The position numbers and the translations under genes are program-made. A model generated the notes under the pieces. That model was not told the origin of the DNA. It saw nothing but the letters and a program-made list of their open reading frames with translations, and searched no databases. 47,779 nucleotides of DNA from a virus. The DNA lies in IMG/VR virus record IMGVR_UViG_3300028398_000002, positions 1-47,779 of that record; one strand, 5' to 3'. Below, one piece after another: positions 1 through 47,779 of the stretch; position 1 is the stretch's first letter, and each line of letters starts with the position of its first letter.

Positions 1-127
1 CAATAATAACCTCCGAAATAGGATAAAATTTGTCATATTTATAAGAGCGTACCTTCGGAAAAACTTTTTGCCGCGCACAACGGCGTTGAATGGGTTAACC
101 TTAAGTACCGCCAAAAGGTTAACCCAT
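1..127. repeat. Direct terminal repeat, copy 1 (circular overlap)
   Basis: Bases 1-127 are identical to 47653-47779. The copy holds the ribosome binding site of terS (CCTCC at 10-14, read leftward) and the left arm plus most of the right arm of a 24-bp hairpin. An exact overlap of 127 bases is what an assembler with k=127 leaves on a circular or circularly permuted molecule. It is probably not a biological terminal repeat, although a real short repeat cannot be excluded from sequence alone. Confidence 0.95.
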
Positions 128-1295: not shown

Positions 1296-4200
1296 ATGAG
1301 AGTACCAAAACTCTTTATTAATTCGAATTCATTTGTATATACAGATGACACTAAAATCCCGTTCGATATAAAGACGGGTAAGAGAGCTTCAGTAGTCAAC
1401 GAGGCTACGTGGAGTACTTACCGAGAAGCCAAAGACTTCATTGAATCACATCCCGATAACGTTTTAGGTGTGGTCGTAAACGAACCCTTTGTGTGCATTG
1501 ATTTAGATCACGTGCTGCCTATTCATCAAAACAAAGTAGACGAGCTGCTAAGTTCGCTTACTGCACAAATCGGTAATTTCTACGCTGAAATTTCTCCCTC
1601 AAATCACGGTCTTCATTTGTGGTTCAAAACGTCCGGAAACTACCGTTATATTGGCAGAAAACTCGAATCTAAATTCGGATTCACCATCGAAATATACTCC
1701 GGCGGTAAGCGTTATATCACCGTAACCGGAAATACCTACGGTGACTATAGTGATGAAAACGTCGACACATGCAATTTCGATGTACTTATCGACGCGATAC
1801 AGAATACATTCCTGATAGATATTTCAACTGATACCGATACATCCGAATTACCTTGTAATCCTTATCAACTACAAAATTATGTACTAACTCACTACCCAGA
1901 ATTAGGACTCGATACTTCGAAACTATCCCCGCAACGATTGAATGAAGTTATCCACACGGCCGATATATTGAACCCTTTGACATACGGAGCTATGTTGAGA
2001 GAAGGTGAGCCGGATGTTAGTAAAATAGAATTTCGTTTGTGTGTAGAATTTATGAAACGTGGAATTTTTGATATATCCATCATAGATAAATACTATCGCG
2101 AAAGCAAACTATATCAATATAGACTAAAAAGCGCCCACCCTAAAAAATGGGCTAAGCGTGAAGATTATAGGTTACGTACGCTTGCAGCCGCTTTTCAAAC
2201 CGTACTTGCAACTACACAAACTAAAATAGAAACGGAGCGCACGATAATGTTAGATTCTCCGAATTTCAGTGACGAAGATAAAATACACTTGACGGAAGAT
2301 GACGTGAAACACGTACCGATACCGTTACAGAAACTTGCATTGAAACAACTCGTTTCAAGCTCACGTGACGAAAACGCTTTAGTCTATACTCACTATCAAA
2401 GCGAGTTGTTACGAGTACGTGACGAATTGAAAGCGTTTTTCGATTGTGAATATGTTCAATTGCCGCTGTCGGTGGTGTCGGTCGTATCGTTACCGCACGA
2501 CGTTCCAAAATATGTTGATATAGAGGCATTATCGGCTTATATCTCGAATATGTTCGTGCAATCTCGACGCGGGCAATATGCGTTATTTTGGTTGTCAAGC
2601 AGCGGAAACCTTCGCACGTTCAACTTGACGAGCTTGGAAGATGCTTTGATGCACGCTTTTGACGATCGAAAATTGAATCTTTTAGGTAGGTTGAAATTTA
2701 TTCCTATACTAAAAAATCATTATGAAAAAGATGCGGAAAAGTTCGCATCAATGCTTTCACTACTTGATGATGCGGAAGTTGTAGGCACGGAATTGTATCA
2801 TCAAAAAGATGTAGATTCGAAACGTATCACAAAATTCATTTCCGATTTTGACGCTCTCGTGCCGCTAAAACTACACGCTGAAAGAGCTAAAATTTTGAAA
2901 GGATTGCGACAGGAAAAGAAAGTATTTGTAGATGCTATCCGAAAATTCTTGATAACCCGTCGTCAGGTCGCATCGAGCATAAAAACCGTGTATCACTACA
3001 ACGAACCGAATTATGTGCGTTTCGACGTTAAGCAGCCTATCTTACACCTCAATAAAATTTTCACTCTGCAATCGGATGACACGGCGCTAACGGAACGAAT
3101 TACGTTACTATCGAAAAGTTTAAAGCGTTTTGTGTCTCCAGATGTAGACGTAAGCTTACCAATCACCGTAAACGGCGGCAATATTGAGTATTTCGCGAGT
3201 AGACTCGATATAGAGAAATTGCGAAACTCCGCTGAATACAAGCTTTTGAAACACCATTTCGAAATAGATGACGTAATTAAATTCATAATAGCGTGTGATG
3301 TGTCGCAAACGGCGGAAAAACTCGGATTTTTATTAGTTCGCGCGCCGTCGAATTTTGGTAAAACATACCTATTCAAAGATATTTTGTCGTTTCTAACTGT
3401 CGAGCTTCCATCCAGTACGTTAACAGAAATTTTGAAAGGTGCTACCGTAGGAGTGTCATCGTTGGAGTTTGATGCGAAAAAAGCGGTGTTCATAGATGAA
3501 TGGCGTGCGAAATACATCGATAAAGTGCAGCTATTATCTTTGGGCAAATATTTGCCGATCACCGCAAAATTCGAATTGCGTAACCACGTGAAGGTAGGCG
3601 CTAAAATTTTTGTTGTGGACGGAGACCCGTTCGGTGAGTCCGTAGATGAGCAATTCCGTAATAGATTTTCGCTATTGAATTTCACTGATAAAGGTACGTT
3701 CGACGAAGCGAAACAAAAGTTCGGATTCGATATATACGATTCTACGCTTGTCGATCGTTTGAAATCGATAGCGTTCATACTTGCAATTCATTACTATCAT
3801 CAAATTTTTCAAGACGGCGTTAACGCAGCGGATAAATTCCTGCTCGATTTTCACGAGCGTCACAAATTGACCGCGACAAGTCTCGACATAGTTGTGCGTG
3901 ATGAGATTCAAAACATATTGAAAGAGGTGTACGAAACGCTGTTATCGCACGGTTTGGATGGTACGAAAGAGGGTGTTGAAAAGTTGCGAAATAACAGTTT
4001 CAGCCTACCTACGAAAGCGCGGCGCTATTTATCGATATTCGCAATTCACAAACCTCGTGACAGAGATATTCCAGTACTTGCCGTGCGTTCTAAAGGCCGC
4101 CTAAAAACATTTTTGATCGAAATGCTTAAAGGTAGCGACACCTTTTCCGAAGCGATGGAGATTATGAAACACGATAAAATTATAGATGATATACTTGATA

Positions 4201-9280: not shown

Positions 9281-10460
9281 GTTCATAGCGTGGTACAGCA
9301 AAAACTGCGATCAACGCCCATCCGTGTATTTGCACGGTGATTTGGGCACGGGTAAAACTATCGGAGCGTTAGCGTTGTTAGCCAAACTCGATTTAAAGCC
9401 GGATAATTTTTTCATTTTGGCGCCGCTTTCGGCTCATCCGTCGTGGCAAAACGACGCTAAACATTTCAATATTGAAATCAAGCCGAATAAAAATCTATTT
9501 ACCTATGAAAAGTTTGTGCGTTTAACCAAAATTCCGGTTGTAAAATTTATCGTTTGCGACGAAGCGCACCGTCTTAAAAACGTCGAGGCTAAAATCACAA
9601 AAAGATTGTGGAAATATTATCGAGACATCCCAAAACTTTTGATGTCCGGCACTATGGCCGATCGCGAATATGAGCTATTTTCACAATTTCGATTGATTGA
9701 CAAAAAACTATTTGGCGATTTGAGTTGGACTAAGTTCAAACGTAAATACTTTTTCGTAGACTCTTACGGTCGGCCGACGGCGCTATTATCAAAAGAAGCG
9801 CGTAATGAGATAATTGAAACAATTCAGCCATACATTTACCGCGTGTCGCTTGATGATGTCGAAATGCCGGAATTGGCGTGTCTCTATACGAAATTACCAC
9901 CGTCTAAAAAGATCATTGAGAAATGGCGCGATTTCGAATCGGAAATTGAAAATCCGATCGCGTCATTTACCCGCGAATACGCTATCGCTCAGGGTATTGA
10001 CCCTGAAACCGGAGAGCTTTTCGACAAAACCAAAATAGACTGGGTGTTGGATTTCTTGCAAGACAACCCAAAAACAATTGTGTTTTCATATTTTCGCGCT
10101 CCGGTACTTGAAATCAAAAAGCGTTTAGGGGATAAATTTTTCTATGTTTTAGGAGACTATAAAAATGACGTCGAAAGTATATTGACCGCCGGAAATCGAC
10201 CAGTAATCGCTACATACGCTATTGCGGAGGGTATCAATTTACAACACAATTATAACACGTTGTTATATATGAGTTTGCCGCTTGCATATCGATCGTATTA
10301 CCAATCGAGGGGGCGTGTGTATCGTAGCGGACAGAAATATAAAGTCGTAGCTCAACATATTTTGATGCAGCCGATCGACTACGAAGTGAAGCGTATTATC
10401 GACAAAAAAGAGGAACTGGCGGAATATCTACGACATAGACCCGTAGCGGGATACAAATAG
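9252..10460 (+). CDS. SNF2-like superfamily 2 helicase
   Basis: The 402-residue ATPase probably translocates on or unwinds DNA during replication or recombination. Motif I is GDLGTGKT (about residues 27-34), motif II DEAH (about 97-100, in VCDEAHRLKN), motif III SGT, and motif VI is in QSRGRVYRSGQ near 350, an arrangement typical of compact phage SNF2-type helicases. ATG 9252 is preferred over GTG 9246 because TAGG lies 7 bases upstream. It heads the block with dUTPase, VRR-NUC nuclease and DNA polymerase. Confidence 0.88.
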   Translation: MLKLRKWQSEFIAWYSKNCDQRPSVYLHGDLGTGKTIGALALLAKLDLKPDNFFILAPLSAHPSWQNDAKHFNIEIKPNKNLFTYEKFVRLTKIPVVKFIVCDEAHRLKNVEAKITKRLWKYYRDIPKLLMSGTMADREYELFSQFRLIDKKLFGDLSWTKFKRKYFFVDSYGRPTALLSKEARNEIIETIQPYIYRVSLDDVEMPELACLYTKLPPSKKIIEKWRDFESEIENPIASFTREYAIAQGIDPETGELFDKTKIDWVLDFLQDNPKTIVFSYFRAPVLEIKKRLGDKFFYVLGDYKNDVESILTAGNRPVIATYAIAEGINLQHNYNTLLYMSLPLAYRSYYQSRGRVYRSGQKYKVVAQHILMQPIDYEVKRIIDKKEELAEYLRHRPVAGYK

Positions 10461-17536: not shown

Positions 17537-18142
17537 ATGACGGTTACACTGTTACACGTGACACCGCTCGAAATAGCCGATCGCGCAATTGGTAAGTGCT
17601 GGGATAAAGGGTGTTATACCGGACAGAAATCAATCGATCGAATGAAGCGTGTGGCCCTGAAAAATAAGCACGAAAGCGTTATCGAGCACATTGTGTTCAG
17701 TTTCGACATTGATGGGCTGTCACGTGCCGCGCTTCAAGAATTGGCGCGGCATAGAATTGCGAGTTTAAGCGTGAAAAGCACACGCTACACATTGAAAGAA
17801 TTAGCAAAAGAGGAACCGTTCATTCAGGGCCGTAAAATTGATACGTTACGTGCCGCTAAATATGTTGTATTACAAAATGATGAGATGATAGACTATCAAA
17901 TTATTCACGCTCTCGATAAATTGCGGATGCTGGTTCAATTGAATCTTTCTAACGATAAAACAAAATACGCGCTGCCGGAAGCGTATAAAACGTCGCTGGT
18001 ATGGACTATCAACGCCAGAGCGCTTCGAAATTTTCTTATTTTGCGCTCATCTAAAGCGGCGTTACCTGAAATGCAAAAGTTGGCTATGGAGATTATAGAA
18101 GTTATCCCGAAAGAGTATAAATTTCTATTTGAAGAGGTGTGA
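17537..18142 (+). CDS. thyX: Flavin-dependent thymidylate synthase
   Basis: 201 residues. It contains the ThyX signature RHRIASLSVKSTRY (about residues 74-87, RHR-x7-S) and an upstream HESVIEH segment, and methylates dUMP to dTMP using FAD and methylenetetrahydrofolate. It completes a pyrimidine pathway with the phage dUTPase and ribonucleotide reductase. It starts right after the previous stop, with AGGAGG upstream. Confidence 0.92.
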   Translation: MTVTLLHVTPLEIADRAIGKCWDKGCYTGQKSIDRMKRVALKNKHESVIEHIVFSFDIDGLSRAALQELARHRIASLSVKSTRYTLKELAKEEPFIQGRKIDTLRAAKYVVLQNDEMIDYQIIHALDKLRMLVQLNLSNDKTKYALPEAYKTSLVWTINARALRNFLILRSSKAALPEMQKLAMEIIEVIPKEYKFLFEEV

Positions 18143-18925: not shown

Positions 18926-21109
18926 ATGACAACTGAAGCGCAACTAATGGCGGATGCGAAATTTTATGAGAGTTATTCACGGTTTTTACCGGATTTAAAT
19001 CGTTTCGAAACGTGGAATGAAGCCGTTGAACGTGTAATGAATATGCACCGTACTAAATATAAAGACGAAATTGAAAAGTCCGATATACTTGCAGGTTTAA
19101 TAGATGAGGTCGAACGTGCGTATAAAGAGAAAAAAATCTTGGGCGCTCAACGAGCGCTGCAATTTGGCGGCGAGCAATTGCTATTGAAAAATGCGCGGCT
19201 TTATAACTGTACTGCAAGTTATTGCGACCGCGTAGAATTTTTCAAAGAGGCGTTTTGGTTGATGTTGTGCGGTTGCGGTGTTGGCTTTTCGGTACAAAAA
19301 GAGCACATAAAACATCTACCCACAATCTCCCCACGTGTGAAACAAGCTAAAACGTTCATAGTCGAGGACAGCATAGAAGGTTGGGCGGAGGCGCTTAATG
19401 TATTGCTATTATCATATTTTGACATAGATTCTCCATTTCGTAGCCGAAAAATATATTTTGATTTGTCAAAAATACGGCCAAAAGGCGCGTACATAAGTGG
19501 CGGTTTTAAAGCGCCTGGCCCTGAACCGCTTAGAAAAGCGTTGGATAAAATAGAGTTTTTGCTTACAAAAGAAACCGAAAATGGTACTGTGACAATGCGG
19601 CCGATAATTGCATATGATATTATGATGCACGCGGCGGATGCGGTCATATCCGGCGGAGTACGTCGAGCTGCAACGATTTGCATTTTTAGTCCTGACGATA
19701 CGGAAATGTTGACCGCTAAAACCGGAAATTGGTTTGTAGAAAATCCGCAGCGCGGTCGTTCTAACAATAGTGTGCTACTGCTACGCGATAAAACTACACG
19801 TGAACAATTCCACGAAATTATGCAGTCGGTCAAAGATTACGGAGAGCCAGGTTTTGTCTGGGCGGATGATATAGACTATATTGTAAATCCGTGTGTCGAG
19901 GTTGGGATGTATTGCCGTGATGATAATGGCAAATCTGGTTTTCAGATGTGTAATTTGACGGAAATTAACGGCGGTATGTCCGAAACGAAGGAGGTATTTT
20001 TCGAGCAATGTAAATATGCTTCTATTTTAGGTACATTGCAGGCAGGTTACACCGATTTCGCTTTTTTGAGCGACTCAACTAAAAAAATCGTCGAGCGTGA
20101 GGCACTTATAGGCGTAGGTATAACCGGATTTATGAATAATCCAAAAATTTTATTTGACCCTGAAATTCAACGTCAGGGTGCGGAGATAGTGAAAAAATGG
20201 AATAAAATTACCGCTAAATTGATCGGAATCAATCAAGCGGCACGTACTACCGTTGTAAAACCGTCTGGCAATGCCTCCGTGCTGTTAGGTACGGCTTCAG
20301 GCATTCACGGCGAGCACGCTCCGCGCTATTTGCGTCACGTGCAAATGAATAAAACCTCAGAAATTGCGCAACTTTTTCAACGTACTAACCCGCGTATGGT
20401 CGAGGAATCCGTGTGGTCAGATACGGATATAGTAGTAGCGTTTCCGATAGAGCCGAAAGCAGGTTCAATTTTCAAGCGCGATCTTTTGGGTGTTAAACAA
20501 CTCGAATATGTCAAATTGACTCAAATGAATTGGATAGCGAGTGGCACTAATAAAGAGTTGTGTGTTAAACCGTTTTTGACTCACAACGTATCGAATACAA
20601 TCACGGTGGATAATTGGGATGATGTAGAAAACTACATTTATAATAACCGCGAGTTTTTGTGTGGCGTATCTCTATTAGCGGCGGCTGGCGATAAAGCGTA
20701 TCCGCAAGCTCCGTTCACTGAAGTATTAACACACACGGAAATACTTGAAAAATACGGTACCGTTGCGCTTTTCGCGTCAGGACTGATTGAAGCAGGATTG
20801 AATGCGTGGGATGGTAATTTGTGGTTAGCACTCGATACGGCGCTGGGTTTTGGCGAAACTTTAGATGATACACACAAAGATTTATTAAAACGCGATTTCG
20901 TTCGAAGATTTAAAAAATTTAGTCGAAATTTTGTTTCGGAAAATGAGTGTGCAAATTGTTTAAAAGATGTTTACAATCTTCACAAATTTTGGAAAATTAA
21001 ACGCGATTCGAAACCTATCGATTGGGCAAAAGAGTTGACTAAACGTGAATATACCGATATAGATACGATAGCGGCCGAAGCGTGTGCAGGAGGTAAGTGT
21101 GAGTTATGA
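18926..21109 (+). CDS. nrdJ: Class II (adenosylcobalamin-dependent) ribonucleotide reductase
   Basis: 727 residues, the size of a monomeric B12-dependent ribonucleoside-triphosphate reductase. Visible features are LYNCTASYC (about 92-100, first redox Cys), the GGVRRAATI segment, the active-site strip NPCVEVG…MCNLTEIN (about 320-345), and a C-terminal CAGGKCEL redox pair. It makes deoxyribonucleotides without oxygen, provided the host supplies adenosylcobalamin. ATG 18926 follows AAGGAG. The end overlaps the next gene. Confidence 0.92.
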   Translation: MTTEAQLMADAKFYESYSRFLPDLNRFETWNEAVERVMNMHRTKYKDEIEKSDILAGLIDEVERAYKEKKILGAQRALQFGGEQLLLKNARLYNCTASYCDRVEFFKEAFWLMLCGCGVGFSVQKEHIKHLPTISPRVKQAKTFIVEDSIEGWAEALNVLLLSYFDIDSPFRSRKIYFDLSKIRPKGAYISGGFKAPGPEPLRKALDKIEFLLTKETENGTVTMRPIIAYDIMMHAADAVISGGVRRAATICIFSPDDTEMLTAKTGNWFVENPQRGRSNNSVLLLRDKTTREQFHEIMQSVKDYGEPGFVWADDIDYIVNPCVEVGMYCRDDNGKSGFQMCNLTEINGGMSETKEVFFEQCKYASILGTLQAGYTDFAFLSDSTKKIVEREALIGVGITGFMNNPKILFDPEIQRQGAEIVKKWNKITAKLIGINQAARTTVVKPSGNASVLLGTASGIHGEHAPRYLRHVQMNKTSEIAQLFQRTNPRMVEESVWSDTDIVVAFPIEPKAGSIFKRDLLGVKQLEYVKLTQMNWIASGTNKELCVKPFLTHNVSNTITVDNWDDVENYIYNNREFLCGVSLLAAAGDKAYPQAPFTEVLTHTEILEKYGTVALFASGLIEAGLNAWDGNLWLALDTALGFGETLDDTHKDLLKRDFVRRFKKFSRNFVSENECANCLKDVYNLHKFWKIKRDSKPIDWAKELTKREYTDIDTIAAEACAGGKCEL

Positions 21110-21587
21110 CGAGTGGTTGAAAGAGTTTAAAGCTAAACGTTCGGAGATTGTCCGGCGTTTAGTGGCGGACGGGTATAGCGATAGAGAAATAGCAGCTTAT
21201 TTCGAGTTCGATAATATGAAAGTTAAACAGGACAAATTTTGTCCTCTTTATAGTCAAAACAAAAAATGTCACAATGTCGAGTATTTGAACTGTTTTAATT
21301 GCGCGTGCCCATACTTTGAAATTATAGACGAACCTATCGAGATAGACGATCGAAAATTGGTTAGCTGGTGCACTATTGATTCGAAATATGCTAAACTATT
21401 CGTAGATGATAACGATAACGTACATTGCGATTGTACGGATTGCACCGTACCGCATACGAAAAAATCAGCGGTTAAATATGTTTCACGTGAAACATTCACG
21501 TATCGGGTAGACGATTCGAGCAGTTTTCTCGATACGTTACGGTCGTTTCAATTGAGTGAAATTTTAGGAAAATTCAAATTGTGGTGA
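21099..21587 (+). CDS. Cysteine-rich small-domain protein downstream of the reductase
   Basis: 162 residues from GTG 21099 (AGGAGG five bases upstream); GTG 21084 is in frame but overlaps that signal. The N-terminus has a short helical motif (DGYSDREIAAYFEF). The centre is cysteine-rich: CPLYSQNKKCHN, NCFNCACPYFE, then CDCTDCTVPHTKKSAVKY. This is the pattern of the metal-binding cysteine-rich small domain (PF04071 type) often found near cobalamin genes, which suits a neighbour of a B12-dependent reductase. A perfect parS palindrome lies in its coding sequence (21478-21495). Confidence 0.7.
   Translation: MSYDEWLKEFKAKRSEIVRRLVADGYSDREIAAYFEFDNMKVKQDKFCPLYSQNKKCHNVEYLNCFNCACPYFEIIDEPIEIDDRKLVSWCTIDSKYAKLFVDDNDNVHCDCTDCTVPHTKKSAVKYVSRETFTYRVDDSSSFLDTLRSFQLSEILGKFKLW
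21478..21495. promoter_or_regulatory. parS-like ParB target, site 1
   Basis: ATGTTTCACGTGAAACAT is a perfect 18-bp palindrome containing TGTTTCACGTGAAACA (21479-21494), identical to the bacterial chromosomal parS consensus TGTTNCACGTGAAACA. It lies inside the cysteine-rich protein gene (codons for YVSRETF). An identical copy is at 28421-28438. No ParA or ParB gene was recognised in the genome. Confidence 0.88.
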
Positions 21588-21588
21588 A

Positions 21589-22101
21589 ATGAAGCTGACA
21601 AAACACGAACGTGATAAATTACTGTTAGAAAATTTGAAATTGATTTACAAAATAATAAACAAATATTTTCCTACAGGTGATTTTAATGAATATGTAAATC
21701 AAGGGATTATCTCTTTCATTAAAGCTATCGAGAAATTTGACCCTACAAAAAACGTTAAATTAACGACATTTGCGTATCGTGTAATCAAAAACGATTTGAT
21801 GGATTATACTATGAAAAATCGTGTTGTAGCCGCTCCGGTTAGCCGAAAGAATATTCCGAAAACTTATTTCGAAAGCGATATCGAGCCGGAGCTTCGCGAC
21901 GCTATTTTTCAACACGAAAGCGACGCCTTTTTTGAAGCTGCAAAAGACGAATTATTACGAAAGATAGAAACACGTTTAGCATCGAGCGAAGCGCGTGCGT
22001 TTAAAATGCTTTTAAACGGCAAAACTTTCAAAGAGATTTACAAAGCGACTGGCGTCACAAAAAAGAAAATGCGGCGTTTAGTGGCGATTTTACAAGATTA
22101 A
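21589..22101 (+). CDS. Phage-encoded sigma-70 family RNA polymerase sigma factor
   Basis: 170 residues. Region 2 is clear: DFNEYVNQGIISFIKAIEKF followed by KLTTFAYRVIKNDLMDY (core binding and -10 recognition). The C-terminal RAFKMLLNGKTFKEIYKATG and VTKKKMRRLV is a region 4-like helix-turn-helix. It probably switches host polymerase to the leftward late genes. It is the last rightward gene and its stop overlaps the stop of the convergent endolysin gene. The ribosome binding site is weak (TGGTG). Confidence 0.88.
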   Translation: MKLTKHERDKLLLENLKLIYKIINKYFPTGDFNEYVNQGIISFIKAIEKFDPTKNVKLTTFAYRVIKNDLMDYTMKNRVVAAPVSRKNIPKTYFESDIEPELRDAIFQHESDAFFEAAKDELLRKIETRLASSEARAFKMLLNGKTFKEIYKATGVTKKKMRRLVAILQD

Positions 22102-26613: not shown

Positions 26614-28386
26614 TTAAACATCAGTAACATAACTTAAATTCATTACTACAGAACCTACATTATAGTTTGAGGGGGGGAGATTTATAGTCCCGTCGCTTAC
26701 AATTTGGATTCTTGCAAAACCCGTTGAATCGTATCTCAATGGTTGTATAAACATCGTAGTAGAATATGATGGAATAGCAGTTGACGGCAGTACTCCCATT
26801 ATTTCGGATGTGGCATTATTGGTATTAACGACTCCTTTTAAGTATATTGCAGAGCCTATTTTACAATAAAATAAACTTCCGGTATGCCCGTTTAGCAGCG
26901 AAATTGGGTGCCAATCCGCACCTTTTGTCACAACCTCTTTCCACTCCGTCCAATTGCCTATCCCCCACATTGTCCTACAATAAACTTTGTTAGATGTAAA
27001 TGAAAATAATATTTGAGTTGAAACATTATAGCTAGACGATGGAGATGCTCCATTTACTACTAATGTACCTTGAAATGTAGTTTCAGGTGTATTGGAATAG
27101 GCATTCCCCGAAGTATTAACTCGATAATTTCCCGGTTTTACGATAGTATCAAAATCTACCGAACCAGTAAGTTCATTTTCGGCTTTTTGGATTGCGTCAT
27201 CATTACCTGCGTGCCAGATTTGATTATTATTTATTGTCACCGCATCTTTCGCAATTTTTAAACCTTGATTAGCATCGTAGCTGATTTGAAATGGTGAATA
27301 CAAATAAGTAAAGTTACCATCAGTACTTCGTGTTTGAATCTGCCAGTGGTTCCGGTAAACAACTTGATAAAACATCGATTCGAAGCCAGCATTTGTATCT
27401 TCCATTCTAAAACCAGGTGTAGCTTTACTCATTATTAAATTATTTATCGTAGTTTCACCTCCGATATCAACACCATTGGCAAAATCATTTGCATAGTTAA
27501 TAAACAGTTTATTACCATCAGCGCTTGCAAACCCCACTAAGGCACGTTTTGCATTTATTCGCAAATCTCTTCCAACAGTAAAAATAATGTTGTCACCATC
27601 TGTACCTGATGCAAATTGATCTAAAGTTCCCGATTTTTTAGCAAGGTCAGAATCGTTACCCGTGTGATAGATTTTATGTTTCGTAGTTTGGCTTGCGTCG
27701 GGATAAATGTACAATTCTCTATCGCTGCCAATATTTAAAGTTGCGTAGTGAGCTAATGTCGAAGGAGATACAACGGCAGGCATCACAACGCCTTCGGTAG
27801 CGGTTTCAGCTACGTCGTTAAAAACCAGCGCATTTAATCCTGTAACATCACTATCGTTAACGTTTATCGCGGGCGCTCCGGTTTGGCCGCCCCAGCCGCC
27901 CGTTTGTGAATTAGTCCAATTCAAACTTCCGGTCATAGAATTTGCGACATCTTTTCTTACGAACGTATTTGAATTTAAACCGTCTAACAAATCTGCATCA
28001 AGACCACTACCAGCACCGTCTACATTTTTAATTTTTGTTAGAATTGTGCTGTCAGATACGTTATTCAAACTCGTATTCGCTTTCAAATCCAATTCGGAAA
28101 TTATTTTAGCTGCCGACCATATATCGCTTGCCGTAGTTCCGTTATCGTTCAACGACGCGCCGCTGATTGTAGATGCGTTTATATTGTATTGTGCTGTTAA
28201 CTCAACCCAGTCAGTGCCGTTAAATTTTTCAAAGCGGTTATTAGAGCTTGACCACCTAATCGTTCCTACAGGTAAATTTGTACCTGTATTGTCGAATAAT
28301 TTTGCCGCATCTTCGTCACGGGCTTTCAGATAGTCGAGAAATGATGTATATTGCGTACCAATTTGTGGATTTGACCAATCAGCCAT
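26614..28386 (-). CDS. Tail fibre protein with pyocin-knob-like C-terminus
   Basis: 590 residues. The N-terminal 150 are fibre-like (FVRKDVANSMTGSLNW is a common tail-fibre repeat). Residues about 410-490 (IVKPGNYRV near the start, FTSNKVYCRTMW in the middle, WTEWKEV at the end) match the knob domain of pyocin/tail fibres. It should bind the host surface. AAGC-rich spacing is absent, and CGGAGG precedes ATG 28386. A parS palindrome and TATAATG lie directly upstream. Confidence 0.82.
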   Translation of the reverse strand: MADWSNPQIGTQYTSFLDYLKARDEDAAKLFDNTGTNLPVGTIRWSSSNNRFEKFNGTDWVELTAQYNINASTISGASLNDNGTTASDIWSAAKIISELDLKANTSLNNVSDSTILTKIKNVDGAGSGLDADLLDGLNSNTFVRKDVANSMTGSLNWTNSQTGGWGGQTGAPAINVNDSDVTGLNALVFNDVAETATEGVVMPAVVSPSTLAHYATLNIGSDRELYIYPDASQTTKHKIYHTGNDSDLAKKSGTLDQFASGTDGDNIIFTVGRDLRINAKRALVGFASADGNKLFINYANDFANGVDIGGETTINNLIMSKATPGFRMEDTNAGFESMFYQVVYRNHWQIQTRSTDGNFTYLYSPFQISYDANQGLKIAKDAVTINNNQIWHAGNDDAIQKAENELTGSVDFDTIVKPGNYRVNTSGNAYSNTPETTFQGTLVVNGASPSSSYNVSTQILFSFTSNKVYCRTMWGIGNWTEWKEVVTKGADWHPISLLNGHTGSLFYCKIGSAIYLKGVVNTNNATSEIMGVLPSTAIPSYSTTMFIQPLRYDSTGFARIQIVSDGTINLPPSNYNVGSVVMNLSYVTDV

Positions 28387-28420: not shown

Positions 28421-28438
28421 ATGTTTCACGTGAAACAT
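28421..28438. promoter_or_regulatory. parS-like ParB target, site 2
   Basis: ATGTTTCACGTGAAACAT, identical to the site at 21478-21495 over all 18 bases and containing the full parS consensus (28422-28437). It sits in the only notable gap of the tail region, between the stop of the host-specificity gene and the -10 element of the fibre gene, so bound ParB would cover a promoter. Confidence 0.88.
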
Positions 28439-31400
28439 TAATACCCCCGCGCTTGCCAATAAATATCGCCACTCACCCGTGCCCCCGTTTGTGAGTCAAA
28501 TAGATAAACATTAAATCCTGTCGGGTACGGGACATCGTTAAACTCGATAGAATGAGTTACACTATTTGTACCTTGATAGGTAACCGTAATCGAGTCCACA
28601 TCGACAAAATTTTTATTGAATGGTATAAAAGTTCCGTTCGTGTCAGCCGCGTTACACGTAGCATTTCCGAAATCGCTTATCTCTTTACTATCCAGACGTA
28701 CTGAAAGGTCACTCAACGCTACAAGCGACTTATCATCGGTGGATGTAAAGTGTACCGTTATGCGCACATATCTAAATTGTGTACCGTAAACACGCCGTGT
28801 ATTTTGGTACAACGTCCACGTAGTGCCGTCATCCGATAATTCTACATCGACACTGATTGAAACGCCCGTTCCTATAATATCGGAAACAGTATAATCAACA
28901 TTTACCATCGACGACGCCAGCGTCACACCGTAATCGAATGTTTCAATGTATGATGCGCTTTGCGGATACGGTTGTGACCAGATTGGATAACCCGCGTCAA
29001 TTTGATCTTGCGGTGATGTCCACCCGCGCGTTGAAAAATGCTCATCGTATGTTTCGGTAATGTTGATAGGTGCCCATAACTTACCGTCACTTAAATGCGC
29101 GTTTGTTTTCGTACCGGAAAAATCGCTATTCCAATTTACTTTTAGGATATAGTTTGGCGGTGAGCTAACAGTTACTGTCACACTCTTAGCCGTGCCGATA
29201 TTACCAGCACTGTCACGAATTGCTACCCAGTAGGTATATTCGCCGCCGGACGTTTCGAAAATCAGTGTAAACGTTCCGGTTTTCGTTCCAATAACTTCAG
29301 CCGTCGCAAAATCCGTTCCGCGTTTAATTATAGCGGTATCAAACGGTAACGAGCCTAAAACGTAATCCCACGTCAAAATGACGTTGTTATCAAGTACTTG
29401 ATATGATACGCTTGTTACCTCCGGCAGTGTGACAGTATGCGTGTATGTCGTTGTAGCCGATTCGTTTCCTACAATATCGACCGCTTTGATTGTGAACGTT
29501 TTAGATTGCCACGTAATTGGAATCGAGTACGCTAAAGCATCTACGGTCACACATTGAGAATCCCAACACACAACATAATGAGAGATAGGTAACGTAGCCG
29601 CTTGACCGCTCCACGTCAGCACTAAAACAGTCTTATCGACGCGACCGTTCACAATAGGAGAATTTGGACTATCAATAGTCACGGTGGTTGATTGAGCTTG
29701 CCCGCTCTGTCCATGAATGTCAACAGCTTTGACGGTAAATGTTTCGCTACCGAGCCAATCCGCCGGAGTTATGTACGAGTTTGTGTTTACAATATGATCT
29801 ATACCGTTATGCGTCACAACATAATATTCAATAGGAAACGACTGGTTAATCACTTCCCAGTCGAGTTTTACTTTACCGTCGATAAACGTATATGTCAAAT
29901 TTGTGATATTCGGCACGTTAAACACATTTGAAATTGTCAACGGTGATGATTCGAATCCACGAGTATCAACCGCTACGACTGAAAAATTAACCGTTTCATA
30001 GGAAGCAACTTTTAACTTAATAGTTGTTTCTCGTGTCGTGAATGTTTCATTAGTTTGTGTATTAGTGACTCGATAATGATCTATCGGGTTACTACCCGCG
30101 ACACTCTCCCACGATAGTACTACGTAAACATTATCAATCGACGCTACACCGTTAGAAATGGTGGGCGGTGTAACAGTAACATCTTTTACAAATTCAGCAC
30201 TTTCAATCTGTCCGCTCATCACTACCGTGAAACCGTATGTAAATGTACCCGTTGACGGTTGCGGCAATTCGAAAATATTGTTAGCGTATATTTTAATATT
30301 TCCGTTGTTATTGAGTTTAAACGCTAACGGAGCGAACGAGCCATCATTGTAAATGATTTCAACTCTAATTTTACTGTTTTCAAACGTATATCCAACATCA
30401 AGAATAACAGGCTTCTCTACTGTAACTACTATAGAAGCACGATTTACACTTACATTACCGGATGTATCGATAGCTTCAATTTCTACCGTACCGCTATCAC
30501 GAAAACCTAAATTGTACGTTGTAGACGTTACACGGTCGGCTACCAATACACCGTTATAGTAAATATTGTAACCAGCTAAATCGACATCATCGACCGGAGT
30601 CCACGATATTTCTATACCGCTATCGAAAATCACGTTGTACGATAGCCCCGTAACATCGGACGGCGGAGCGGACTTACCTTGATAGATATAGTTCACACCT
30701 GCGGCATCGTTAAGCGATTGAGTCCATCCGGTGAGTACCGAAACAACTTTAAATGTATACTCTTTAGTTTCTTGCAGCGATAATGCGTTAATACTGATTG
30801 ACGTACTTTCAACTTGTTTAGCTAATGTTATAGCCGCGCCGCCGTCGGTAGGTATAGCGTAGATGTCAAATTTAGCCGACATCGAGCCGCTGAACTCCCA
30901 GCTCAAATCGATAAAACCGACTATCGTACCATCTTTTCGTTTTTCAAGGTGCTCACTAACTATGATATTTTGAGCCGTCGGGTAATCAAGGACGGGCGGT
31001 TCGAATGTCGGCAATTCAAACGAATCATCAAGTAAAATAGATTCGTTGTAATCGACTGCTATAATATGAAAATTGTTATCAACCGACCGCGAAATATTGA
31101 CGATTCTAAGTTTTTGATAGTTTTTCGTTGTGGTTCCGATTGTATAAACTGAATACTCCACCGGAGCGGTTGAAAACGCTTGTGTTACGTCAAATTCGGT
31201 ATAATCGCCTGCACTCAATGCTGCCGTGTCAAGTGTACGTTGTTCAATCGTATCATCCGAATGACGAATCAAAATCGTATAAGTTTGTGTAGGGTCGATA
31301 GTCACAGGTTCATCTAATACGACGTGTGTCGTAGTACTCCCCGCTAACGTCCGGCCGCTCTCTCCCCAATTCGGCACATCGTGCGCAAAATAAACCACGT

Positions 31401-33453
31401 CGCCCACTTCACACGCCAGTGCATCGACAGTTGAATCCCATTCAACCACACGCTTTTGCGTTTGAGTTGTACCGTAAAAATATCGCGCTAATCGATAAGC
31501 TAAGTGCGCTTGCGTAACTCCGATAGCGTCGATAGTCTGTTTTTTATTTGATGACACGTTTGACGGATATTGTACGAATGACGGTCGGTAATCGTTTTCA
31601 AAATCATAAAATTTAACTTCGATAATGTCGGCTATATCCTCTTTTCCGACGTACGTTGTTTTATACGACCCCGCAACTATGTTACCCATTGAAAAGATTT
31701 GAGTTGCGGCACGCGGTTTATCAATAATAACACTATATTTATCACCTTTCAATACCGGAGTTGCTCTACCTACCATACATACGCGCTGTAACGTAGTCCA
31801 CACATCGACCGAAAAGTCGATCAATCCATGAAATTCAGCTCTATGGCGTGTAAGCGTCGAGCCGTTGAACGTGAAAGAAACCAACTCATTACACCACGTC
31901 GCAAAATCGACGAACGCCTGAAAATCTATGCTTTCATACGGTATTCCGGCTCCGTATCGTCTATTTGTCAAAATATCCCACGCTATCCACGCCGGATTGG
32001 ATGGTTCAACCGTAGCGTAAAACGCTCCCGTATCGTCATAGACGTCGATCGGCTTACGTCTTATTTTCGTTATAACTGAATTTATAGAGCCGCCAAGCGT
32101 TTTGGACGCTTCGATTCCAAGCGCTAATTTAGCAATATATGGATGACTCAACGAATCTAAATTTCGTTCAATATACGCTTCAAAAAACACGGTGTTGATT
32201 TCTCGTGACGTAGCGACATCGGCGGTTACTTTTGTAATTTTTATATCGTAAGTATCGCCGCTGTTTACGCTTAAAGTATAACGTTTTCTAATTTTGTGAG
32301 TTGTGTTACCGGAAATTTTTACCGTATCGAACCATTGTGTGTTATAGATTGGTCGTGATCTTCCTGTTTTGTACCATCCGGCACCAGGACTCGTTTCACT
32401 CCATTGATATTGCGGTACCCAGTCTATTGAATCGTTTCGCCATTCGTATTCAGTGCCCACAACATCTTTTCGATATTCGTAATATGTAGTCCACGTAGAA
32501 TCAGAAGTTCGTTTATATTCGATTTTTAGATACACATCTCTATTATCCAAACCGCCGGAATTATTAGCATAAAAGAGTCCTTGCGGCAATGTAATCAACA
32601 CATCTATACGATCAAGATCGTTCGACTGAGTCGTAGCGGTTACGGGCGTAGCATTCGTAACTTCGCTATTAACCGATATGTATTGTCTGTATGCGTTCTC
32701 ATCGGTATAGAGTATAGTTTTGTTTCCGGCGGCATCGAAAACGACTGTTTTACCAAACGCCTGCTGAGTCAATGTACCTGTACGATAATCATAAAAAGCG
32801 CGTTCAATTTGTGGAAACGGTATATTATTAACGGTAATATCATTTTCGCTAATCGGTTCGATTTCACCCTCACACAAAACCAGTCCCATATACAACATTT
32901 CGCTGTTTTCGTCGGGATAATCTTTGAAAATCGAATAGATATTACCGCCCACATTATACTGGCCGTATAGAATCGGAATCGGCCGCCCAATTTGGCTAAC
33001 GGTAGTCGTACCAGCCCAGCCGTAAGTCGGTGACGTGTCGAAAGATTCAGAGTTCAACTGCCCAAGTTTAGGTTGAACGGGTACGAGTGCATTTATAATA
33101 ACAAGTCCGGCCGTAACTAAGCTTGCAGTTATTAAAGCAGTACCGATTGCGCTTGAAATATTAAGAGCTGATGCGATAGATGCTGCAGCTGCGGGAGCAT
33201 AAACCGCAACGACTATCGTCAATATCGTCGCTATCACTTCCGGCACGGCGTGTTTTCCAAGATACGGAGCGTAAACTACCTGATCACCGTCACGTAATAC
33301 AATATCGAGCGTTTCTATCGATCTACCGTTCACCGAAACAATGTATGTCCCGTTTGACGGTATAACATCGCTCAAAAGCGTACCGTCGTCAACATTTGAA
33401 AAATCTATCTCTTTTTTCGTCAGTGGGTTTTTGATATACGCTACTCTAACCAT
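28438..33453 (-). CDS. Tail tip host-specificity protein (lambda I-J fusion)
   Basis: 1671 residues. Residues 1-70 resemble a ubiquitin/MoaD-like fold (IVSVNGRSI, LRDGDQVVYAP), as in lambda gpI. A glycine-rich hydrophobic region (about 80-115) follows, then the gpJ-like tip domains (PIPILYGQYNVGGNIY; TLGGSINSVITKIRRKP). About six fibronectin-III-like modules occupy the second half (ISWTPVDD, VLSWESV, LDWEVI, LTWSGQ, LTWDYV). A galactose-binding-like end finishes the protein. It docks on the host receptor. Confidence 0.88.
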   Translation of the reverse strand: MVRVAYIKNPLTKKEIDFSNVDDGTLLSDVIPSNGTYIVSVNGRSIETLDIVLRDGDQVVYAPYLGKHAVPEVIATILTIVVAVYAPAAAASIASALNISSAIGTALITASLVTAGLVIINALVPVQPKLGQLNSESFDTSPTYGWAGTTTVSQIGRPIPILYGQYNVGGNIYSIFKDYPDENSEMLYMGLVLCEGEIEPISENDITVNNIPFPQIERAFYDYRTGTLTQQAFGKTVVFDAAGNKTILYTDENAYRQYISVNSEVTNATPVTATTQSNDLDRIDVLITLPQGLFYANNSGGLDNRDVYLKIEYKRTSDSTWTTYYEYRKDVVGTEYEWRNDSIDWVPQYQWSETSPGAGWYKTGRSRPIYNTQWFDTVKISGNTTHKIRKRYTLSVNSGDTYDIKITKVTADVATSREINTVFFEAYIERNLDSLSHPYIAKLALGIEASKTLGGSINSVITKIRRKPIDVYDDTGAFYATVEPSNPAWIAWDILTNRRYGAGIPYESIDFQAFVDFATWCNELVSFTFNGSTLTRHRAEFHGLIDFSVDVWTTLQRVCMVGRATPVLKGDKYSVIIDKPRAATQIFSMGNIVAGSYKTTYVGKEDIADIIEVKFYDFENDYRPSFVQYPSNVSSNKKQTIDAIGVTQAHLAYRLARYFYGTTQTQKRVVEWDSTVDALACEVGDVVYFAHDVPNWGESGRTLAGSTTTHVVLDEPVTIDPTQTYTILIRHSDDTIEQRTLDTAALSAGDYTEFDVTQAFSTAPVEYSVYTIGTTTKNYQKLRIVNISRSVDNNFHIIAVDYNESILLDDSFELPTFEPPVLDYPTAQNIIVSEHLEKRKDGTIVGFIDLSWEFSGSMSAKFDIYAIPTDGGAAITLAKQVESTSISINALSLQETKEYTFKVVSVLTGWTQSLNDAAGVNYIYQGKSAPPSDVTGLSYNVIFDSGIEISWTPVDDVDLAGYNIYYNGVLVADRVTSTTYNLGFRDSGTVEIEAIDTSGNVSVNRASIVVTVEKPVILDVGYTFENSKIRVEIIYNDGSFAPLAFKLNNNGNIKIYANNIFELPQPSTGTFTYGFTVVMSGQIESAEFVKDVTVTPPTISNGVASIDNVYVVLSWESVAGSNPIDHYRVTNTQTNETFTTRETTIKLKVASYETVNFSVVAVDTRGFESSPLTISNVFNVPNITNLTYTFIDGKVKLDWEVINQSFPIEYYVVTHNGIDHIVNTNSYITPADWLGSETFTVKAVDIHGQSGQAQSTTVTIDSPNSPIVNGRVDKTVLVLTWSGQAATLPISHYVVCWDSQCVTVDALAYSIPITWQSKTFTIKAVDIVGNESATTTYTHTVTLPEVTSVSYQVLDNNVILTWDYVLGSLPFDTAIIKRGTDFATAEVIGTKTGTFTLIFETSGGEYTYWVAIRDSAGNIGTAKSVTVTVSSPPNYILKVNWNSDFSGTKTNAHLSDGKLWAPINITETYDEHFSTRGWTSPQDQIDAGYPIWSQPYPQSASYIETFDYGVTLASSMVNVDYTVSDIIGTGVSISVDVELSDDGTTWTLYQNTRRVYGTQFRYVRITVHFTSTDDKSLVALSDLSVRLDSKEISDFGNATCNAADTNGTFIPFNKNFVDVDSITVTYQGTNSVTHSIEFNDVPYPTGFNVYLFDSQTGARVSGDIYWQARGY

Positions 33454-47184: not shown

Positions 47185-47653
47185 CCGATTTTCGTTCGAT
47201 TAGGTTGATAGTGATAGGTGTTTCAGTGTTTCCGGTAGTTTCTACGGTAGCGTCCACACGTTCGCGATAGTCATATTTACTTGAAAGTACAAATTTAGCC
47301 ATAGAGGGATTCAATTGCTCAGTCAATCCGCCGTGCAATAGAGAGTATTCGGAAAGAGTGTTTATAATTTCACGAGCTTCCTCGAAATATGGGTCGCGGA
47401 GATATGTAGACAACGTAGATTGCCCAATACCGAGCCACACACAGAAACCAGTCTTCAAAAAAGGAATTTCAGCTTCGTAACATAAGCGGGCATATTCTTG
47501 CACAAGTTCGATCAATTCGTTTTGATTGTGAAAAAGTTTATTACCGTTTCGCCAACGGTCGTAATATTTAGAATTAGAGGGAGCTTTAGCAGGGATGAGA
47601 GCGGAATTTTTGGCTTGTGCCACACTCTTTTTTCGGCGAACTTTTCGCGCCAC
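47174..47653 (-). CDS. terS: Terminase small subunit
   Basis: 159 residues from GTG 47653; TCGGAGGTT lies 8-9 bases upstream. The N-terminus is very basic (ARKVRRKKS). The middle has a helix-turn-helix-like segment (FCVWLGIGQSTLSTYLRD, about 70-87), and SMAKFVLSSKYDYRERVD is typical of small terminases. It should recognise a packaging site, for which the upstream palindrome at 79-138 is a candidate. Confidence 0.85.
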   Translation of the reverse strand: MARKVRRKKSVAQAKNSALIPAKAPSNSKYYDRWRNGNKLFHNQNELIELVQEYARLCYEAEIPFLKTGFCVWLGIGQSTLSTYLRDPYFEEAREIINTLSEYSLLHGGLTEQLNPSMAKFVLSSKYDYRERVDATVETTGNTETPITINLIERKSDDT

Positions 47654-47779
47654 AATAATAACCTCCGAAATAGGATAAAATTTGTCATATTTATAAGAGC
47701 GTACCTTCGGAAAAACTTTTTGCCGCGCACAACGGCGTTGAATGGGTTAACCTTAAGTACCGCCAAAAGGTTAACCCAT
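47653..47779. repeat. Direct terminal repeat, copy 2 (circular overlap)
   Basis: This is the exact second copy of bases 1-127. It begins at the first base of the GTG start codon of terS and stops inside the right arm of the 24-bp hairpin, so the hairpin is complete only across 79-138 of the left copy. Joining the ends restores a continuous control region upstream of terS. Confidence 0.95.

Follow-up and report, generated by a model that had tools for sequence, protein, structure and literature searches.

The analyzed DNA, referred to as the window, comprises 47,779 nt and is the entire IMG/VR record IMGVR_UViG_3300028398_000002. As an identical 127-bp direct repeat was found at both ends, the genome is likely complete. 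Judged from its sequence, the phage is a siphovirus, and its lifestyle looks lytic. A rightward block of genes encodes a primase, a helicase, a DNA polymerase, a dUTPase, a class II-like ribonucleotide reductase (RNR), ThyX-like and Dam-like proteins, and lastly a sigma-like factor; the lysis and virion genes follow in a leftward block. The sign of the GC skew flips near the convergent junction, at approximately 22 kb. The primase gene is preceded by a long, apparently non-coding region (1–1256) with repeated AACACGCCGGATAGT-type units, which is possibly a regulatory RNA or an origin. Table 1 summarizes the features around two parS palindromes.

Table 1. Coordinates of the two parS sites, their neighboring genes and the terminal repeat in the window.
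Feature	Position	Strand	Description
Direct terminal repeat, left copy	1–127	+	right copy at 47653–47779; exact 127-bp identity of the ends
RNR gene, upstream of site 1	18926–21109	+	phrog_367, E 1.7e-97
Site-1 gene	21084–21587	+	167-aa Cys-rich protein, apparent two-module fusion; site encodes VSRET in the linker
parS site 1	21478–21495	.	18-bp palindrome ATGTTTCACGTGAAACAT, exact match; 16-bp consensus at 21479–21494
Sigma-factor-like gene	21589–22101	+	directly after the site-1 gene, last of the + block; PF04542, 43.8 bits; phrog_351
Tail-fibre-like gene, downstream of site 2	26614–28386	-	phrog_10588, phrog_972
parS site 2	28421–28438	.	same 18-bp palindrome ATGTTTCACGTGAAACAT, exact match; 16-bp consensus at 28422–28437
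Tail-tip gene (lambda gpJ-like), ends at site 2	28438–33453	-	PF24801 and PF13550 over cut-off

A sequence-only reading of this DNA had reported a perfect 18-bp palindrome with the complete ParB target at site 1 and had considered its two copies to be beyond chance, and both statements held. When both strands were searched, the bacterial parS consensus 16-mer, TGTTTCACGTGAAACA, was found exactly twice, and each copy matched the palindrome TGTTNCACGTGAAACA that defines bacterial chromosomal-type parS. The two sites were identical over 20 bp (TATGTTTCACGTGAAACATT; 21477–21496 at site 1). The number of exact 16-mers expected in the window was 1.8e-5 from the base composition and 3.4e-5 from a first-order Markov model, giving a probability of two or more copies of 1.6e-10 to 5.7e-10 under the two models; in 200 shuffles, a mean of 0.02 sites was obtained even with up to 2 mismatches. 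Two CACGTG-centered near misses at 17550 and 24378, with 2 mismatches each, were not accepted as parS, and they are uninformative because CACGTG itself occurs 18 times in the window against 9.4 expected. Site 1 is intragenic and is translated as V-S-R-E-T, and the product of its gene matched no Pfam or PHROG family. At site 2, the 16-mer adjoins the tail-tip gene at its TAA; it falls within the 51-bp gap ahead of the tail-fibre-like gene, 35 bp from the start codon of the latter.

The reading had further stated that the genome has no recognisable parA or parB, which was confirmed by profile searches. No match to ParB_N (PF02195) was obtained in the whole record, and none to the ParA family AAA_31 (PF13614) in the window, even at E = 10. 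Accordingly, a phage-encoded ParABS system was not found, as neither gene was detected. Integrase, repressor and Rep were likewise absent among the ORFs scanned in the window, which include some small ORFs without an assigned family. The window is therefore not a plasmid-prophage (phage-plasmid) by its scanned gene content, and the suggestion that the phage persists as a plasmid through the host partition system found no support. What the window holds is parS of the chromosomal consensus on a phage without ParA and ParB, an arrangement referred to here as orphan parS.

In the collections searched, no close relative of the window was found by DNA, site-1 protein, terminase or tail tip. The nearest relatives by RNR were two records, L010 (69% identical) and L011 (67%); both parS sites were absent from them, the records being fragments that have few genes in common with it. 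Residues 6–125 of the site-1 protein matched L010 at 9629–9958 (48%), while approximately the last 50 residues matched a short, separate ORF downstream of RNR in both L010 and L011. In L010, the two modules are encoded by individual genes that flank the RNR gene: the Cys-rich N-terminal module upstream, and the C-terminal module by a short gene (ending QLSDILGKYKLF or similar) that overlaps the RNR end. In the window, the modules are joined in one gene that stands after the RNR gene, and parS lies in the joining linker. The rearrangement around RNR spans 18926–21587 in the window, 9629–12368 in L010 and 9998–12362 in L011. A more distant RNR relative (61%), a 114-kb phage, had a perfect parS as well, located in a non-coding gap. 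Regarding the host, the best matches of terminase and Dam among annotated phages were Campylobacter phages, a weak hint at Campylobacterota. Together with the lambda-like tail tip, these matches suggest that the host is probably Gram-negative. A search of genome contigs returned RNR-bearing contigs from varied MAGs and no convincing host.

The same kind of site was examined in phi29 and its relatives. Four parS-type sites were found in phi29 with the sequence TGTTTCACGTGGAACA (opposite strand TGTTCCACGTGAAACA), which the consensus permits, and two to four sites were found in each of seven relatives, B103 having two. At the site in the lysin linker of gene 15, 14 of 16 alignment columns were invariant inside the site compared with 16 of 45 on either side. 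Moreover, each of the six third codon positions within the site was invariant across eight phi29-like phages, while only 41 of 258 were invariant elsewhere. Because third codon positions are so constrained, the site encoding the linker peptide NVSRET/NVSRGT is kept as DNA, that is, by selection at the DNA level in phi29-like phages.

To place these sites among annotated phages, a 30-mer around site 1 was compared by BLAST, and matches were obtained at 1106 places in 386 records. When the palindrome in the 30-mer was exchanged as a control, 105 records were matched, 97 of which were Acinetobacter phages, and the matches listed there lay in one RNA polymerase gene. The parS matches came from phages of Listeria (A511 and P100plus among them), Bacillus, Lactobacillus, actinobacterial and Pseudomonas hosts. 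Phages of Escherichia, Klebsiella or Salmonella appeared neither among the ten most frequent names nor in 60 rows taken from across the ranking. Enterobacterales are not known to have chromosomal ParABS, and the absence of their phages from these names and rows fits a target of host ParB. Some records filed as phages resembled bacterial contigs, namely OR846xxx–OR849xxx (Listeria phage LM 4-11-1 / 4-14-1), CAKLQF020000016 and CAKLQF020000029, and cellular transporter genes were found in the Acinetobacter ones. Numerous matches of this kind, filed under Listeria phage LM 4-11-1/4-14-1 or Acinetobacter phage MD-2021a, were left out of the evidence. In a naive survey, such records would raise the parS count.

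Eight cultured or isolate-type records were checked whole and held one to six sites each, with neither ParB_N nor ParA detected in any of them. They were Lactobacillus phage Bacchae (two exact sites and one near), Bacillus phage vB_BcoS-136 (four), B103 (one exact and one with a single change), Butyrivibrio phage Arian (three), Arthrobacter phage Racecar (two), DSS3_MAL1 (two), the 5.9-kb inovirus PQ006135.1 (bajarodino virus 6), whose six perfect sites are nearly all intergenic, and a 4.5-kb microvirus (MG945524.1) with one perfect site at 3613–3628 inside a VP4-like gene.

In IMG/VR, the exact parS 16-mer occurred in at least 120 stretches, while two control palindromes of identical base composition gave 0 and 1 matches. 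The 120 listed loci fell into 117 unrelated clusters, and the sequence preference in their flanks was essentially limited to two adjacent bases (A at -1 in 58% and at -2 in 50%), which fits one binding site acquired many times. Among the matches listed, 39% of the sites were intergenic compared with 7.3% of background positions, an approximately fivefold enrichment, with genes called by a crude method. Among 50 long records with parS, any ParB_N match was found in five and a match above the cut-off in three, and in a set of 42 IMG/VR records and 8 annotated phages, ParA was found in one; as IMG/VR records are often fragments and a few may contain host DNA, these figures set limits on orphanhood and do not prove it. 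One further example was an uncultured 18-kb phage (IMGVR_UViG_3300029906_000047), assigned as phi29-like by its terminase, head, tail and polymerase PHROGs, with six parS-type sites in three pairs, all intergenic.

The enrichment, the intergenic bias, the records without ParB and ParA across phages, and the conservation in phi29-like phages together make it well supported that such sites are genuine parS elements for a ParB that the phage does not encode. The earlier interpretation is thus supported in part, with recruitment and sequestration of host ParB both compatible with the sequence. For the window, it is rather probable that both palindromes are working parS sites for the chromosomal ParB of the host, carried by a tailed phage without partition proteins of its own. 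ParB is known to nucleate on parS, to close on CTP and to spread (PMC12704722), so that the spread protein offers a platform for ParA and SMC. Under this explanation, host ParB would bind both sites after genome entry, close as a CTP clamp, slide to the neighboring phage DNA and build a partition complex, which would act through ParA and/or SMC to tether, position or segregate the phage DNA with the nucleoid. An infecting or stalled genome would thereby be retained by the cell, particularly where the host grows slowly or is dividing. For the window phage, we infer ParB binding, the host and the benefit. Two points count against the host-ParB explanation: a benefit from partition is not obvious since the phage looks lytic, and the sites are missing from L010 and L011, fragmentary and sharing few genes as these nearest RNR relatives are. 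A broader proposal, to which we give even weight for and against, is that orphan host parS is a general and repeatedly evolved strategy of virulent tailed phages, inoviruses and microviruses in sporulating and non-sporulating hosts. Host ParB would load onto the incoming genome, which would then be treated like part of the host chromosome, and the window would be a non-phi29 example.

Four other explanations were weighed. The sites may act as decoys, with replicating phage genomes absorbing host ParB and the SMC it loads, which would disturb segregation of the host chromosome or release the phage from a control linked to ParB. With two sites on each of many copies, the phage would presumably offer more sites than the chromosome does, and phages with multiple sites do exist, such as the inovirus and the 18-kb phi29-like record with six each. 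However, many phages have only one or two sites, and the precedents phi29 and SGI1 use theirs for their own retention, although SGI1 also destabilises its helper. A decoy role is possible but unlikely. Local transcription control, in which spreading ParB represses or times nearby genes (the tail-fibre gene after site 2 and the sigma-like gene after site 1), is also possible, and we consider it distinctly improbable. Spreading of ParB over DNA is established, gene silencing through such spreading is known, and site 2 does lie in a gap upstream of a gene. However, site 1 is intragenic, only weak promoter-like matches were found beside site 2, and across phages the sites have diverse contexts, gene ends and linkers among them.

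There is a similarly small likelihood that a regulator encoded by the phage uses the palindrome as its operator, or that the palindrome acts as an RNA hairpin, its identity to parS being a coincidence. A 7-bp hairpin could form, and the phage has small genes without an assigned family from which such a regulator might come; yet exact identity to parS recurs in 117 unrelated clusters from the 120 loci listed and in tailed, filamentous and microvirus genomes alike. A terminator or hairpin role of the palindrome was rejected, as no terminator-like site was found and the hairpin z-score was only about -2. Finally, although the absence of the sites from the nearest RNR relatives would suit a chance occurrence or a neutral remnant of host DNA, this explanation is highly improbable, and chance is effectively excluded as the origin, given how rarely two exact copies would arise (probability about 2e-10 to 6e-10), the at least 120 IMG/VR matches against 0 and 1 for the controls, and the DNA-level conservation in phi29-like phages.

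The preferred explanation, binding by host ParB, has precedents among known systems. In PMC9437464, which cites Meijer et al. 2005, the phi29 chromosome is reported to be trapped in spores by Spo0J. Similar to the window, phi29 and its relatives have parS-type sites that match the host consensus and no detectable ParA or ParB, as checked in B103. The likeness extends to the placement of the sites: as at site 1, a site in phi29-like phages lies in an inter-domain linker and is read VSRET/VSRGT, and as at site 2, one site in phi29, Goe15 and Chedec 11 adjoins a stop codon. Unlike the window, a 47.8-kb siphovirus, phi29 is a small podovirus and infects a spore-former. As the host of the window phage is probably Gram-negative, spore entrapment cannot be assumed for it. 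In SGI1, two parS copies are bound by the ParB of an IncC plasmid, and the element is partitioned by the plasmid parABS and gains stability (PMC10954446). It resembles the window as a mobile element with two parS-like sites, which in SGI1 are read by the ParB of another replicon. In contrast to the window, its target is a plasmid ParB with plasmid parS, the element is integrative and not a phage, and a helper protein, Sci, is added. P1, N15, mycobacteriophages and cyanophage Mic1 also have parS on the phage genome, but they encode their own ParA and ParB and mostly use their own parS sequences, whereas the window has the bacterial chromosomal consensus and neither protein. Compared with bacterial chromosomal parS, the 16-bp consensus is identical, and the copies of the window lie on a phage and not near a chromosomal origin.

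Orphan host parS as a kind is already known from phi29. As far as the full-text literature searched shows, with most subscription papers and preprints outside it, two aspects are new: its presence in a phage unrelated to phi29 with a probably Gram-negative host, and its recurrence across many phage groups, single-stranded DNA phages included. If host ParB loads widely on phage DNA, the chromosome-segregation machinery would be a common phage–host interface, one that in the reachable literature has been noticed essentially for a single sporulation case, that of phi29. This would also provide a simple and directly testable account of how lytic phages persist in cells that grow slowly or divide, and ParB and SMC would join the host factors of infection. 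Moreover, parS would serve as a sequence tag aiding host assignment, with ParB-less hosts expected to be without such phages.

A 116.7-kb record (IMGVR_UViG_3300037518_000322; G052/L239) had been considered as an extreme orphan case and was dropped because ParA is encoded beside its array of 24 parS-type sites. These sites (up to 1 mismatch) lie between 90600 and 110500, many of them at gene starts, and no ParB was recognised in the record. With the adjoining ParA gene, the record appears to represent an element that has an unusual system of its own for partition or regulation.
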